A DNA stretch of 37,484 nucleotides. Origin: Deltaproteobacteria bacterium (lineage in GTDB: Bacteria > Desulfobacterota > Desulfarculia > Adiutricales > Adiutricaceae). Location of the stretch: assembly GCA_031264185.1 (NCBI GenBank), contig JAISEL010000032.1:1-37484 (forward strand), given 5' to 3'. Below are positions 1-4,472 of the stretch, piece by piece. Position 1 is the stretch's first letter. Each line of letters starts with the position of its first letter. The position numbers were made by a program, and so were the translations under genes. The notes under the pieces were generated by a model. The model was not told where the DNA came from, did no database searches, and saw nothing but the letters and a program-made list of their open reading frames with translations.

Positions 1-112
1 TCATAAATTGCTAAAAATCAATTTTATATCTATTTAATACTAAAAATGATTGAATTATGCTTCGGTGAGAAAAATTTTTGACTCGGCCCAAAAAGTTTTT
101 CAGGGACGACTA
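1..112. repeat. Left arm of long inverted repeat
   Basis: This AT-rich stretch is the reverse complement of 37068-37178 with one substitution (left 88/89 area, GGGCCG against GTGCCG) and one single-base length difference in an A/T run. The inner boundary is sharp, since similarity stops at base 112. The outer boundary cannot be seen because the window starts inside the repeat. The two arms flank almost the whole window. No protein family was recognised in it. It could be a MITE or insertion-sequence end, or a longer dispersed repeat at which an assembly broke. Confidence 0.93.
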
Positions 113-129
113 CTTATCCTAAAACGCCT

Positions 130-360
130 ATGTTTAGTTCCAGAAACAGGTATGAGGGCGAATTCGTATTTGACCGGCACACAATTGTCCCTCTTTGGCA
201 AAATCAAACCATTCTCGGCGTTACGTACTCGAGGGATAATCGTCCGGCCAGTTTTCCGGAAAATCAGGTTTGGTATTACACTTTGAGCGGCGATACGCTT
301 GAAATAAAGTATAGCGGCGATTTATTGTTTATTTTAGGAGTCTATAAAAAAATTCATTAA
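130..360 (+). CDS. Small unrecognised ORF, possibly a gene fragment
   Basis: This 76-codon ORF begins just inside the inverted repeat, and the same frame is open upstream into the repeat. The predicted protein alternates polar and aromatic residues (a Trp-Tyr-Tyr-Thr-Leu-Ser-Gly-Asp-Thr-Leu segment), which suggests beta strands of a small lipocalin-like or META-like fold, but no family is recognised. There is no convincing ribosome-binding site before the ATG. It may be the C-terminal end of a gene cut by the repeat, or chance. Confidence 0.25.
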   Translation: MFSSRNRYEGEFVFDRHTIVPLWQNQTILGVTYSRDNRPASFPENQVWYYTLSGDTLEIKYSGDLLFILGVYKKIH

Positions 361-879
361 GGCCATCAGATAGAATCAGCGCCTTTCGCCTCTAAATCTG
401 ATCATATTTAGTTATACTATTTAATGTTAGTTATGTAATTAAGTTCAATAGTGACAAATAAATACTGACAACTATTTATTTTCAAGTTTAATTGCGCACA
501 GTTGGAAGACGACCTTACGCAGCGGGGAGAAATTTCCGCCCGGCAGCTTTCTGCTCTGTTCAGGCAGCAATTTGTTATTAAATTAATATATTTTATATCA
601 AATAATATTATACATTGTCAATGCGCTAAAATTATAAAAATACTTAATACATACAAATTAGTTTCAATTATATTAATTATTTTACTGTTCTTATCACGAA
701 ACTTTCTAACCTGTCATAAGGTCAGCTAAGGGGTTATTTAGCCCATTGACCCCAGCTTTGATGACTGGGAGTTGAGGAGACCAAAACTGAATCAGACCGG
801 CCCTACTGTATCACAAGACCTCCAACCGAACAGGTCATCAGAGGCGCCGGCTGAACAGTTACTGAATTAAAAAAAATCC
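361..879. other. AT-rich intergenic stretch without a recognisable gene
   Basis: About 520 bases, strongly AT-rich between roughly 400 and 720. Only short ORFs occur (for example 502-729), without a Shine-Dalgarno sequence or recognisable protein features. The composition differs sharply from the aroF side and resembles the right edge of the window near the other repeat arm. Confidence 0.6.
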
Positions 880-908
880 TTGACATCATCAAAACCCCGG
901 CTTATACT
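880..908 (+). promoter_or_regulatory. Sigma70-type promoter of the aroF-pheA leader
   Basis: A perfect -35 box TTGACA (880-885) is followed after exactly 17 bases by TATACT (903-908). Transcription would start near 915, giving a leader of about 325 nt before aroF. That leaves room for the leader peptide and attenuator. Confidence 0.85.
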
Positions 909-1021
909 TTGCCTGTTCTTCTTCTGAGTTATAAAACCAGAAGATATAAGTTTAATATGAACCGAATAGTTTTTAATTATTAATATTTTTCGTTCTCTTT
1001 CCCTTTTTAAGGAATAGCCGC

Positions 1022-1159
1022 ATGTCTTTCTCCCGGCCCGCCAATACCCAAACAGCTGAGTGCGCCCGCTGGCGCACCTCTTTAGGCACGGATCTGGGCC
1101 CGGCTTTGGCTCCTTACTTTTACTTTTTTAACTTTAGGGCCAGGGTTTCGCTTGAATAA
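1022..1159 (+). CDS. Leader peptide of the aroF-pheA attenuator (pheL-like)
   Basis: A 45-codon ORF starts at ATG 1022, preceded by AAGGA (1009-1013) at 8-base spacing. Codons 32-38 (1115-1135) read Tyr-Phe-Tyr-Phe-Phe-Asn-Phe, a run of aromatic codons expected to stall a ribosome when charged tRNA-Phe or tRNA-Tyr is scarce. It ends at TAA 1157-1159, just 22 bases before the terminator stem. In known phe and trp operons, such peptides are sensors for transcription attenuation and have no other function. The position between promoter and terminator, upstream of genes that make phenylalanine precursors, supports this. Its sequence is otherwise unlike enterobacterial PheL, so the name is by role only. 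Confidence 0.85.
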   Translation: MSFSRPANTQTAECARWRTSLGTDLGPALAPYFYFFNFRARVSLE

Positions 1160-1200
1160 GCCATAGTGAAATAAAATCACCAAAGGCCGCCAGCGAAACC
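1060..1200 (+). promoter_or_regulatory. Antiterminator and pause structures of the attenuator
   Basis: GGTTTCGCT at 1144-1152 is fully complementary to AGCGAAACC at 1192-1200. The latter overlaps the last four bases of the terminator's 5' arm and its loop, so the two structures exclude each other. The 1144-1152 strand lies in the last codons of the leader peptide. A ribosome at the stop codon would cover it (terminator forms). A ribosome stalled on the aromatic codons would leave it free (antiterminator forms). A separate perfect 7-bp hairpin, GTGCGCC/GGCGCAC (1060-1077), contains CGCTGGCG (1067-1074), which can also pair with 1188-1195. The mechanism is inferred; the complementarities are seen. 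Confidence 0.75.
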
Positions 1201-1228
1201 AATAAACCGCTGGCGGCCTTTTTATTTT
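1182..1228 (+). terminator. Attenuator terminator before aroF
   Basis: This is a 14-bp perfect stem (1182-1195 with 1208-1221, GC-rich core GGCCGCCAGCG) with a 12-base loop, followed by TTTTTATTTT. It ends directly before the aroF ribosome-binding site AAGGAGG. A complete intrinsic terminator between a promoter and its structural gene is the hallmark of attenuation. Confidence 0.92.
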
Positions 1229-1240
1229 AAGGAGGAAAAA

Positions 1241-2143
1241 ATGTCCCCGTCCGACGCTTCGGCCCCCATCCCACCGGTCAAACTGCCGGCTTACAAACTG
1301 ACCAGCCGGCTGACCCATCCACAAGATTCAGTCATTCCTCTGGGCGGTTATTCCATAGGAGGGCCGGAATTTATTGTCATGGCCGGTCCCTGCTCGGTGG
1401 AAGCCGATCCCCAGATGCTGGGCACAGCCTGGGATGTCAAAGTGGCCGGAGCCCACATTATCCGGGGCGGGGCCTTTAAACCCAGAAGTTCCCCTTACAG
1501 TTTCCAGGGCCTAGCCGAGGAAGGGCTTAAAATGCTGGCTAAAGCCAGAGAACTGACGGGTCTGTCTATAGTCACCGAGGTCATGGATTCCTCTGAAGTG
1601 GAGCTGGTCGAAGCCTACGCCGACATCCTCCAGGTTGGTGCCAGAAACGCCCAGAATTTTTCTTTACTCAAGCGCCTGGGTCAAGTTAACAAGCCGGTTT
1701 TATTAAAAAGAGGCCTGATGAACACGGTGGAAGAATTTCTGTGCTCGGCCGAGTACATCTTAGCCGGCGGTAACCCCCAGGTTATCCTGTGTGAACGGGG
1801 CATCCGGACGTTTGAGACCTCGACAAGAAATACTCTTGATCTGAGTTCTATTCTGGCTATTAAAGAAAGAAGCCATTTACCGGTCATAGTCGATCCCTCC
1901 CACGCCAGCGGCAAAGCCAATTACGTGGCCCCCTTGTCTAAGGCGGCTTTAGCGGTCGGTGCGGACGGACTTATGATCGAAGTTCACTGCGATCCGGCCA
2001 AGGCCCTGTGCGACGGCGAAGAATCTATGACCCCGGACCAGTTCAAAGATCTTATGGAAAATCTAAGAGATCTGGCTCCCTACTTCGGACGACAGATATC
2101 CACAGCCGCTTCGGTTACCGCCCGAACGGCCGATGGCCTGTGA
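1241..2143 (+). CDS. aroF: 3-deoxy-7-phosphoheptulonate synthase (DAHP synthase)
   Basis: It condenses phosphoenolpyruvate and erythrose 4-phosphate, the first step of the shikimate pathway, in the cytoplasm. The 300-residue protein is of the KDO8P-synthase-like (type I-beta) class. Visible motifs are Ala-Gly-Pro-Cys-Ser-Val-Glu near residue 48, Gly-Gly-Ala-Phe-Lys-Pro-Arg near 80, Val-Asp-Pro-Ser-His-Ala-Ser-Gly-Lys near 212, and a C-terminal Ile-Glu-Val-His segment. The roughly 45 residues before the barrel are too short for the ACT-like regulatory domain of the Thermotoga enzyme, so feedback control may rest on the upstream attenuator. The ATG has a strong AAGGAGG site at 6-base spacing. 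The pheA start follows eight bases after the stop. Confidence 0.95.
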
Positions 2144-2151
2144 GACAACCT

Positions 2152-3300
2152 ATGAGTAACGCCCCTGATCCATCGGCTGTTTTAGCTCCCCTGCGCCTGG
2201 AAATTGACCATTTGGACGAAAAGATCCTCGAACTGGTCCAAAAAAGAGCCAGCGCTGCCATTGAACTTGGCAAACTGAAAAAGAAAAGTTCCCTGCCCAT
2301 TATGGATTTAGGCCGGGAGAGAAACGTATTAACCCGCCTGACCAAGAATATCACTCCCGGCCAGGGTCTGGGGCCCGAGGCCGTGGCTGCCGTTTTTACG
2401 GAAATCATCAAAGCCTGCCGGGACGCTCAGGCTCCGACTAAAGTCACGTTTTTAGGGCCGGCCGGAACTTTCAGTCATGCGGCCGCTCTGGAACAGTTCG
2501 GCCGTCTGGCCCATTTTATTCCCGAAGATGATCTGGCTCAGGTTTTTAAGACTGCCGAAGCAGGAGAAGCCGATTTTGCTTTAGTGCCTTTTGAAAACAC
2601 GACTGAGGGGATTGTCGGCCAGACCCTTGACCTGCTGACCCAGACAAGTTTAAAGGTTCAGGCCATGCTCAACCTCAAGGTTAATCTGTCATTAATGAGT
2701 ACCCACGGGGATATAAGCCGCCTTAAAGTCATAAGCTCACATCCCCAGGCTCTGGCCCAGTGCCGCAACTGGCTGGCTCTGAATATGCCGGGAGTGGAAC
2801 TGAGACCGACCGTCTCCACGGCCGCCGGGGCCACTTTAGCCATTAAAGACGATTCCTTTGCCGTGATCGGCCACCCGGCTCTGGCTACGTTTTACAGATT
2901 AAACGTCATGAGCGGCAATTTGGAAGATTATCAGCATAACCAGACCTGCTTTTTAGTCTTAAGCCGCGATGACAGCCAGATAACCGGCAGAGACCGCAGC
3001 TTACTGTGGTTTGCCGCACCCCATAATTCCGGCAGCCTGTATAAATGCCTCCAGCCTTTGGCTGAGGCCGGAGTCAACCTGACCAGACTGCACAGCCGGC
3101 CGGACCCCGGTTCCCCCTGGGAATATCTGTTCTTCCTGGAACTGGAAGGCCATTTTAAAGAAGAAAATGTCATCCAGGCCATTTCAGCTTTAAAGAACGA
3201 GACGGCTAAATGCTGCGTTCTGGGCTCCTATGCTCCGCCGGATGAGCCGTTCCAAAAAGACCCCAATCACTTAGGCAAATCAGCCATTTTTAATAACTGA
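2152..3300 (+). CDS. pheA: Bifunctional chorismate mutase/prephenate dehydratase (P-protein)
   Basis: It converts chorismate to prephenate and then phenylpyruvate, the committed branch to phenylalanine. The chosen start, ATG 2152, gives 382 residues, normal for the family; a longer frame from 2008 would overlap aroF. It has an AroQ-type chorismate mutase helix bundle (about 8-95), a prephenate dehydratase domain starting Phe-Leu-Gly-Pro-Ala-Gly-Thr-Phe-Ser (about 105), and a C-terminal ACT domain (about 285-365). Two signature motifs deviate. The dehydratase Thr-Arg-Phe reads Thr265-Cys266-Phe267, and the ACT Glu-Ser-Arg-Pro reads His314-Ser-Arg-Pro317. The second motif helps bind the feedback inhibitor phenylalanine, so allosteric inhibition may be altered. 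It is translated with aroF; its own Shine-Dalgarno sequence is weak. Confidence 0.94.
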   Translation: MSNAPDPSAVLAPLRLEIDHLDEKILELVQKRASAAIELGKLKKKSSLPIMDLGRERNVLTRLTKNITPGQGLGPEAVAAVFTEIIKACRDAQAPTKVTFLGPAGTFSHAAALEQFGRLAHFIPEDDLAQVFKTAEAGEADFALVPFENTTEGIVGQTLDLLTQTSLKVQAMLNLKVNLSLMSTHGDISRLKVISSHPQALAQCRNWLALNMPGVELRPTVSTAAGATLAIKDDSFAVIGHPALATFYRLNVMSGNLEDYQHNQTCFLVLSRDDSQITGRDRSLLWFAAPHNSGSLYKCLQPLAEAGVNLTRLHSRPDPGSPWEYLFFLELEGHFKEENVIQAISALKNETAKCCVLGSYAPPDEPFQKDPNHLGKSAIFNN

Positions 3301-3305
3301 TCCTG

Positions 3306-3344
3306 AAAAGCCCCGAGGCCGCCCATTGGCCTCGGGGCTTTTTT
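3306..3344 (+). terminator. Intrinsic terminator after pheA
   Basis: A perfect stem AGCCCCGAGGCC (3309-3320) with GGCCTCGGGGCT (3328-3339) has a 7-base loop, extended by AAA/TTT pairs and a run of T. It closes the aroF-pheA unit six bases after the stop codon. Confidence 0.95.
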
Positions 3345-3396
3345 AAGATTAAAATTACAGCAAAATCCGATAGTTATCTACCCGTTAATTATTTTA

Positions 3397-3426
3397 TTAA
3401 GACTCTTTCTCTTCATGTGATATAAT
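3397..3426 (+). promoter_or_regulatory. Putative promoter of the DUF362-polyferredoxin operon
   Basis: TATAAT (3421-3426) is preceded by TGA, an extended -10 of the TGn type. A weak -35, TTAAGA (3397-3402), lies at 18-base spacing. A short hairpin GAGAGC/GCTCTC (3512-3527) follows in the untranslated leader. Confidence 0.6.
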
Positions 3427-3554
3427 TTTCTCCCGGACAAGAATTAAAACCCCTGTCCCTATTATAATCTCCCTAACAATTCTGTTTTTTCCCTTTCCTG
3501 TCCGCTCTGCCGAGAGCTGCGGCTCTCTTTGTTGACTATTCGGAGGACGCCTTT

Positions 3555-4472
3555 ATGAACAGAAGAACATTTATCAAAACCCTGGCCGGAGGAGCCCTGG
3601 CTTTAAGCCTGGAAGCCGGTTTGGGCTCCCTTCCCTCCAGCGCCTTACGGGCCCAGGGTTTTCCGGATCTCGTTGCCACCAGAGGCACAAATCTGACCGC
3701 CATGTTTGACAAAAGCCTGGAAGCCTTAGGCGGCTTAGGCCAGTTTGTCAAAAGCGGTCAGACTGTTCTTGTCAAGCCCAACATGGGCTGGGCTATTGAT
3801 CCGGCCGGCGGGGCTAACACTAATCCGGTTTTAGTCTCCCATATAATAAAAAACGTTTTAAATTTAGGGGCTAAAAAAGTCTACGTTTTTGACAACACCT
3901 GTGACAACTGGAATGACGCTTATCAGGTCTCGGGGCTGGAGAAAGCCGCCACCGAAGCCGGGGCCACAGTCGCTCCGGCCAATTCCACGGGCTATTTCCA
4001 AAAAGTCGACCTGCCCGGAGAAACTACCCTGAAATCCACCCAGTACCATGAACTCTACCTGGAAGCCGATGTTGTTATAAATGTCCCGGTTTTAAAACAT
4101 CACGGCGGAGCCAGAATGACGGCAGCCTTAAAAAACATGATGGGCGCCATTTACGATCGCCGGCCCCTCCACCGAAACGGTCTGGACGAAACTATTCCCG
4201 AACTTATGCTGTACAAAAAACCTAACCTCAATGTTGTTGAGGCCGTCCGGGTGATGATCAGCGGCGGGCCCAGAGGACACGGCGATTCCAGGTACCTGTC
4301 AAGTCAGATGATGATTGTCTCGCCCGATCCGGTAGCGGCCGATATGGCCTCGGCCAAACTTCTTGAGGCGGCCGGCATTAAGATTCCTGAATATATTGAG
4401 CAGGGCGCCAAGATCGGTCTGGGGGTGGCCGATCTGGAGAAATTAAACATCCAAAGGCTGACTGCCGCCTGA
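3555..4472 (+). CDS. Tat-exported DUF362 domain protein
   Basis: This 305-residue protein begins with a twin-arginine signal (Asn-Arg-Arg-Thr-Phe-Ile-Lys followed by a hydrophobic Ala/Leu/Gly stretch to about residue 35), so it should be folded in the cytoplasm and exported by Tat. The rest matches the DUF362 family (PF04015), with a Val-Lys-Pro-Asn-Met-Gly segment near residue 73 and a Pro-Val-Leu-Lys-His-His motif near 180. DUF362 proteins are often found with ferredoxin domains in anaerobes and their function is not settled. It is followed after 10 bases by a membrane iron-sulfur protein. Its stop codon overlaps that gene's ribosome-binding region, so the two probably act together in electron transfer (inference). 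Confidence 0.85.
   Translation: MNRRTFIKTLAGGALALSLEAGLGSLPSSALRAQGFPDLVATRGTNLTAMFDKSLEALGGLGQFVKSGQTVLVKPNMGWAIDPAGGANTNPVLVSHIIKNVLNLGAKKVYVFDNTCDNWNDAYQVSGLEKAATEAGATVAPANSTGYFQKVDLPGETTLKSTQYHELYLEADVVINVPVLKHHGGARMTAALKNMMGAIYDRRPLHRNGLDETIPELMLYKKPNLNVVEAVRVMISGGPRGHGDSRYLSSQMMIVSPDPVAADMASAKLLEAAGIKIPEYIEQGAKIGLGVADLEKLNIQRLTAA

Follow-up and report, generated by a model that had tools for sequence, protein, structure and literature searches.

The enterobacterial pheL-pheA system combines a Phe-rich leader peptide with alternative terminator and antiterminator structures and controls pheA alone. The trp, his and leu attenuators of proteobacteria apply the same elements (control codons, an antiterminator of regions 2 and 3, a terminator of regions 3 and 4) to other amino acids and genes. 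At aroF, the closest functional precedents are aroR-aroF of Corynebacterium glutamicum, which has been tested, and a predicted uORF motif upstream of Acholeplasma aroF. The C. glutamicum leader contains Phe-Tyr-Phe and is induced by Phe limitation, Tyr supply being without effect in the reviewed account (Neshat et al. 2014, as reviewed in PMC11802643). The uORFC-13-1 motif upstream of Acholeplasma aroF is a computational prediction from 24 sequences, all of Acholeplasma or environmental DNA (PMC8632094). For the Geobacteraceae, a short conserved RNA element has been described 5' of the DAHP synthase gene Gmet_0346, with no mechanism or leader peptide stated (PMC2700814), and a putative attenuator is listed upstream of another aromatic gene cluster in Desulfovibrio vulgaris (PMC1173090).

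The window analysed here, a stretch of 37,484 nucleotides, is part of a 4.4-Mb draft genome. Its aroF-pheA operon is preceded by what is very probably a classical ribosome-mediated transcription attenuator, predicted to sense charged tRNA-Phe and probably tRNA-Tyr. With pheL-pheA it shares the Phe-rich leader, the alternative terminator and antiterminator and the presence of pheA in the operon; in contrast, its leader comprises 45 codons, combines Tyr with Phe and precedes aroF. The trp, his and leu attenuators have the same succession of control codons and regions. Likened by description, aroR-aroF has a Phe/Tyr leader peptide directly before the DAHP synthase operon as well, but belongs to an actinobacterium and shows no Tyr effect in the reviewed account. 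The Acholeplasma motif, also compared by description, is a predicted uORF with Phe codon(s) and a terminator before aroF, for which just at least one Phe is noted (PMC8632094); the Gmet_0346 element, likened in the same way, is a conserved RNA upstream of a DAHP synthase gene, in an organism formerly classed among the deltaproteobacteria (PMC2700814).

A search against Rfam returned no gathering-level match in the window and no T-box or amino-acid riboswitch before aroF; the Phe_leader family (RF01859) scored 20.3 bits against a cut-off of 55 (E 0.51). The first-pass annotation of this DNA had considered the element possibly independently evolved or undescribed in the lineage. It is indeed distinct from Phe_leader, and the open-access literature yielded no report of such an aroF attenuator for this lineage or for Clostridia, but Phe-leader aroF attenuators are known or predicted elsewhere. 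The element itself is well supported; its type of mechanism is known, and the distribution is wider than described.

Table 1 Features of the aroF-pheA leader and operon, in window coordinates
Feature	Position	Strand	Basis
Sigma-70-type promoter, TTGACA-17-TATACT	880..908	+	11/12
Shine-Dalgarno-like AAGGA of the leader ORF	1009..1013	+	direct reading
Leader peptide ORF, 45 codons, MSFSRPANTQTAECARWRTSLGTDLGPALAPYFYFFNFRARVSLE	1022..1159	+	F/Y-rich ORF in the same place at 28/28 family loci
Control codons Tyr32-Phe-Tyr-Phe-Phe-Asn-Phe38	1115..1135	+	reading; codon count over 29 homologues
Region 1, possible protector strand, partner 1136-1147	1102..1114	+	window fold
Region 2, antiterminator 5' strand, within the end of the leader ORF	1144..1152	+	fold, swaps, alignment
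Spacer inside the antiterminator with a small hairpin of GTGA 1166-1169 and TCAC 1177-1180	1160..1180	+	fold
Region 3, antiterminator 3' strand, overlapping terminator 5' arm and loop	1192..1200	+	fold, swaps, alignment
Intrinsic terminator, stem 1182-1195/1208-1221 followed by T tract	1182..1229	+	fold, covariation
aroF, type I-beta DAHP synthase without N-terminal ferredoxin-like domain	1241..2143	+	profile match TIGR01361, 390 bits
pheA, chorismate mutase + prephenate dehydratase + ACT	2152..3300	+	domain matches
Terminator closing the aroF-pheA operon	about 3305..3343	+	-33.7 kcal/mol, z -7.7

The promoter, the 45-codon ORF with its ribosome-binding site, the Phe/Tyr run, the 14-bp terminator and the pairing of 1144-1152 with 1192-1200 were all located where the first-pass annotation had placed them (Table 1). 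These elements, their spacing and the operon structure, with only 8 nt between aroF and pheA, can be read directly from the DNA. The promoter is the top-scoring sigma-70-like site across positions 1-4000 (11/12), and promoter-like sites lie 5' of the leader at 28 of 29 homologous loci. The leader mRNA of the window has a 5' untranslated region of about 107 nt and a Shine-Dalgarno sequence. At eight or more loci (L011, L014, L017, L019, L021, L022, L025 and L031 at least) the leader's in-frame ATG follows the -10 hexamer by 6-9 nt, and the leader mRNA is therefore probably leaderless in several genera. The ORF, which is predicted to be translated, holds several codons for the amino acids produced by the pathway, and an intrinsic terminator stands ahead of the first structural gene. 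The terminator stem of 14 bp encloses a 12-nt loop and reaches -27.9 kcal/mol (z -6.35), which none of 200 shuffles equalled; a pattern scan with a loop limit of 8 nt does not register this hairpin. The segment 1085-1229 as a whole folds with z = -4.1. Regions 2 (GGTTTCGCT) and 3 (AGCGAAACC) are exact complements over 9 bp, and 1136-1205 in isolation folds into the antiterminator (-19.7 kcal/mol), which may be extended by 3 bp (GCC 1160-1162 with GGC 1185-1187). The proposed alternative pairing thus holds with one correction, in that it takes up just the loop-side 4 bp of the terminator 5' arm together with five loop bases.

In all 28 genomes of the family with DNA upstream of aroF, the gene is preceded by an F/Y-rich leader ORF together with a terminator and an alternative pairing, and locus L031 from another family of the class also has an F/Y-rich leader and a terminator. 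The order aroF-pheA is kept wherever both genes are readable. A covariance model built from A1, a MAFFT alignment of the 28 family sequences, gave one strong match per family genome, upstream of aroF, and a single extra match, in G009. The latter has its own F/Y leader and a compensated pair (GGATCCGC/GCGGATCC); about 80 bases separate it from a contig end, which makes the next gene unreadable. The weaker matches (E > 1e-5), as far as they were read, resemble ordinary terminators or different leaders. When plasmids were searched with the leader, no match was returned. Three genomes of family f1 that are >90% complete (G006, G011 and G023) had neither a detected DAHP synthase nor a strong leader match, a possible loss of aromatic synthesis.

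Both stems carry compensatory changes. On the unconstrained MAFFT alignment of the 28 family sequences, 86.2% of the antiterminator cells are paired and 20 cells are changed on both sides; its covariation is 0.324, whereas shuffles give 0.177 (0/500) and slid partners no more than 0.159. At its middle positions, U-A, A-U, C-G and G-C pairs are all seen. The terminator is 89.2% paired with 41 double changes (0/500 shuffles). When the partners were swapped between genomes, none of 20,000 swaps reached the observed energy (-522 against a mean of -443), and the same was found with 11 genus representatives (-209 against -173, 0/20,000), the one version of the shuffle and swap tests that takes relatedness into account. 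The pair itself reads GGTATCG/CGATACC in L017, L020, L022 and L030, GGGGTATCGC/GCGATACCCC in L011, GGCGTCGCC/GGTGACGCC in L019, GGCTCCGC/GCGGAGCT in L013, GGGTTGCC/GGTAACCC in L018 and GGAGGTT/AACCTCC in L031. L009, L012 and L014 have short antiterminators, and single-sequence shuffles were not significant for several relatives. Spacer hairpins like GTGA/TCAC are visible by eye in several relatives. A protector stem of regions 1 and 2, which may favour termination when the leader is not translated, is present in the window fold; across the family its signal is weak (103 of 10,000 swaps reach the observed value) and is clear mainly in the window's own genus. The comparison that the first-pass annotation had proposed thus came out in its favour: aromatic codons, terminator and alternative pairing are conserved across the family with compensatory changes.

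The geometry is consistent with control by a stalled ribosome. Over the 29 loci, median distances to region 2 are 39 nt from the first F/Y codon of the 8-codon window and 18 nt from the last such codon. The end of region 2 falls about 1 nt ahead of the stop codon (median -1 nt), and 28 nt separate the stop from the terminator. The 3' edge of a ribosome lies about 15 nt from the P-site codon. With this textbook footprint, the distances fit a ribosome that, stalled at Tyr32-Phe36, would leave 1144-1152 free and, at the stop, would cover it, as had been supposed for this pairing. RNA polymerase would initiate near 915 and a ribosome would translate the 45-codon leader. With ample charged tRNA-Phe, and probably tRNA-Tyr, it would reach the stop at 1157 and cover region 2, the terminator 1182-1221 would form and transcription would end ahead of aroF. 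With Phe or Tyr scarce, it would stall on Tyr32-Phe36, and the exposed region 2 (1144-1152) would pair with region 3 (1192-1200) as soon as the latter emerges, brought close by the spacer hairpin GTGA/TCAC. The antiterminator would then delay the terminator long enough for the polymerase to pass, and aroF and pheA would be made. Stalling, premature termination in the cell and a response to each amino acid are what we infer from this arrangement. The mutual exclusion of the two stems is borne out by swaps, covariation and distances, and the masking of region 2 is deduced from the distances. With the bases under a stalled ribosome masked, the antiterminator is the optimal fold in the absence of region 4 and the terminator in its presence. 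Since the terminator (-27.9) beats the antiterminator (-19.7) at equilibrium, control must be kinetic; the antiterminator would have to act before region 4 emerges, which is the weakest link of the mechanism. Conservation, compensatory changes and geometry together support the pheA/trp-style logic attributed to this leader at the outset.

The control codons bear on the question of which amino acids are sensed. The run at 1115-1135 is the sole spot with at least six F/Y in eight codons on either strand of the window. In the best 8-codon windows of 29 homologous leaders, 184 of 232 codons are F/Y (base shuffles within the windows reach at most 105), with 124 Phe, 60 Tyr and 28 Gly; Leu, Ile, Val and Cys are absent against about 83 expected from T-rich chance, a contrast that is partly due to the choice of windows for F/Y, the shuffle preserving composition. 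Synonymous codons are both in use (136 TTT and 52 TTC, 42 TAC and 41 TAT). The constraint acts on the aromatic codons. A serious, if minority, possibility is that the same attenuator senses Phe alone and that the Tyr codons are passengers. Phe codons exceed Tyr codons 2:1, pheA in the operon belongs to the Phe branch, and the reviewed account of C. glutamicum aroR provides a precedent. The gene tyrA lies elsewhere than aroF-pheA and has no F/Y leader in the window's genome; in 12 tyrA loci the maximum was 5/8. However, Tyr is kept in the run, interleaved with Phe, in nearly every relative over a long divergence, and a Tyr shortage should matter because aroF encodes the sole DAHP synthase detected in the genome. 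On these grounds Tyr would be sensed together with Phe.

An extension to all three aromatic amino acids, with a Trp codon kept since aroF also feeds Trp synthesis, is unlikely. At least one Trp codon occurs in 25 of the 29 leaders (base-shuffle mean 14.2, max 23), and a single DAHP synthase was detected in the window's genome. The Trp codon, however, lies mostly well 5' of the F/Y run, often as NWR, NWQ or SWR in the leaders of L002-L031, and it is not evident how a ribosome stalled there would leave region 2 exposed; the codon may have a role in RNA structure instead. Trp in distant leaders does not track a single DAHP synthase either: that Trp in the leader marks genomes with one such enzyme fits the window's genome but was rejected, as several distant genomes with Trp leaders have two or three copies. 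Moreover, the trp operon has its own WWW leader. In L031 (G046, a sister-family genome) the leader lacks Trp and differs strongly in sequence, yet it keeps the spacing and the 7-bp antiterminator given above.

Upstream of trpE in the window's genome, a leader ORF (MLFSC...GFWWWSDF..., MLFSCTDIAGSRFFALEGFWWWSDFNCGGVDGRP) is followed by a terminator, so the organism appears to use attenuation elsewhere too. This second attenuator of the same genome, a Trp leader (..EGFWWWSDFNCGG..) with its terminator at approximately L155:1765-1925 (G000 contig C147), precedes trpE-trpGD, with trpE at L155:1947. At L170:200-400 (G055) a short ORF (MKTIFIQTALTVATRLYWWRGPGRWSV) and a terminator before an apparent trpD form a probable Trp attenuator in the sister family. 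One Trp-rich stretch (WCWxWWRR), situated some 104 nt upstream of the second aroF paralogue in sister genomes, resembled the leader of a matching Trp attenuator but was rejected: it is an out-of-frame reading of the paralogue's own N-terminal ferredoxin-like domain, and in the loci read this paralogue lies inside the trp operon after trpG.

Leader peptides can also act in trans, as reported for peTrpL of Sinorhizobium meliloti (PMC7298713), and the hairpin could accordingly be a constitutive terminator or the 3' end of a small RNA, with the ORF encoding a small aromatic-rich protein. This is very improbable here: the leader N-termini vary from genus to genus, whereas the F/Y run, the spacing and the RNA pairing are kept, the pairing overlaps codons at the end of the ORF, and strong matches to the element occur only before aroF. 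Attenuation in cis by the translating ribosome accounts better for this pattern.

Outside the family, aroF loci of other genomes of the class have a related-looking leader (..YFYFSFYYFTAVCP..) in which region 2 (GTCTGCCC) pairs with the entire terminator 5' arm, over up to 15 bp; five of these loci fail the terminator criteria used. Among distant genomes from a collection scan, an F/Y run and a terminator precede aroF in 19 of 74; under the same criteria the antisense control gave 0/74 and the remaining tiles at these loci gave 3/532. A stricter run (6 of 8) retains 14/74 against 0/532 control tiles. The 19 loci include Aminicella, Alkaliphilus, Lachnospiraceae, a MAG of the Fusobacteriaceae, one of the Acholeplasmataceae (L085, with F/Y leader and terminator before aroF) and other deltaproteobacteria. 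In the partner-swap test they gave 0/20,000 as a set, individual pairings often not being significant. Ten distant F/Y-leader loci had no match in Rfam, including T-box and riboswitch families. In seven loci of Clostridia and a Bacillota MAG (L037, L059, L071, L078, L093, L104 and L106) the aroF leaders have in common a motif resembling GFYF[FY]SAG.FC, which could reflect conservation of an RNA strand or of the peptide. An aromatic leader was also seen at an unexpected place, L169:460-640 (G046 contig C20), where a short ORF (..VFYWRGFWPEH..) and a terminator precede an apparent gene for an iron-dependent alcohol dehydrogenase. That the Phe codons are a chance reading of a T-rich stretch beside a terminator carries practically no weight: the run is T-rich, but the composition-matched shuffles, the missing Leu, Ile, Val and Cys (a contrast inflated by the F/Y-picked windows) and these controls speak against it, and conservation already refutes it.

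In the window's genome, PF00793 detected AroF and a second protein 32% identical to it, presumably KDO-8-phosphate synthase, and PF01474 detected nothing; AroF is thus the sole DAHP synthase detected. The ferredoxin-like domain PF18152 is absent from the window AroF, from the leader-linked AroFs of L018, L013, L031 and L117 and from the pheA-linked copy of L120, a set that comprises the leader-linked AroFs examined in the window's own family and its largest sister family. The second paralogues of L120 and L121 (weak matches) and the enzymes of L113 and L106 do have the domain. Phe and Tyr inhibit a Thermotoga DAHP synthase that carries the ferredoxin-like domain, and a Pyrococcus enzyme lacking this domain is not inhibited by any of the three aromatic amino acids (PMC6362186). 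Since AroF is the sole DAHP synthase detected and lacks this feedback domain, attenuation may carry much of the feedback and may be the main feedback on AroF here. The combination is not general, because the enzymes of L106 and L113 are attenuated and do carry the domain. Most sister-family genomes possess a second aroF, which in several loci read lies downstream of a trpG-like gene; 13 such paralogues have no F/Y leader, and in this comparison the leader is found only on the aroF adjoining pheA. This restriction, together with the absence of the domain from the isoenzyme in the proteins tested, points to the idea that transcriptional control is used instead of enzyme control.

The recurrence of such leaders before aroF in Clostridia, Fusobacteria and other deltaproteobacteria, together with the blank in Rfam at ten loci, suggests that sensing of charged tRNA-Phe/Tyr at aroF is common and under-annotated. 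It is conceivable, if rather doubtful, that a widespread and mostly undescribed attenuator layer responding to Phe and Tyr, perhaps also to Trp, acts on the entry enzyme in many phyla and that in Desulfarculia-like bacteria, with a DAHP synthase lacking the allosteric domain, it would act as the principal feedback for the entire aromatic pathway. For the organism studied here, a textbook mechanism would operate at the entry point of the shikimate pathway, kept through a whole family of uncultured bacteria.
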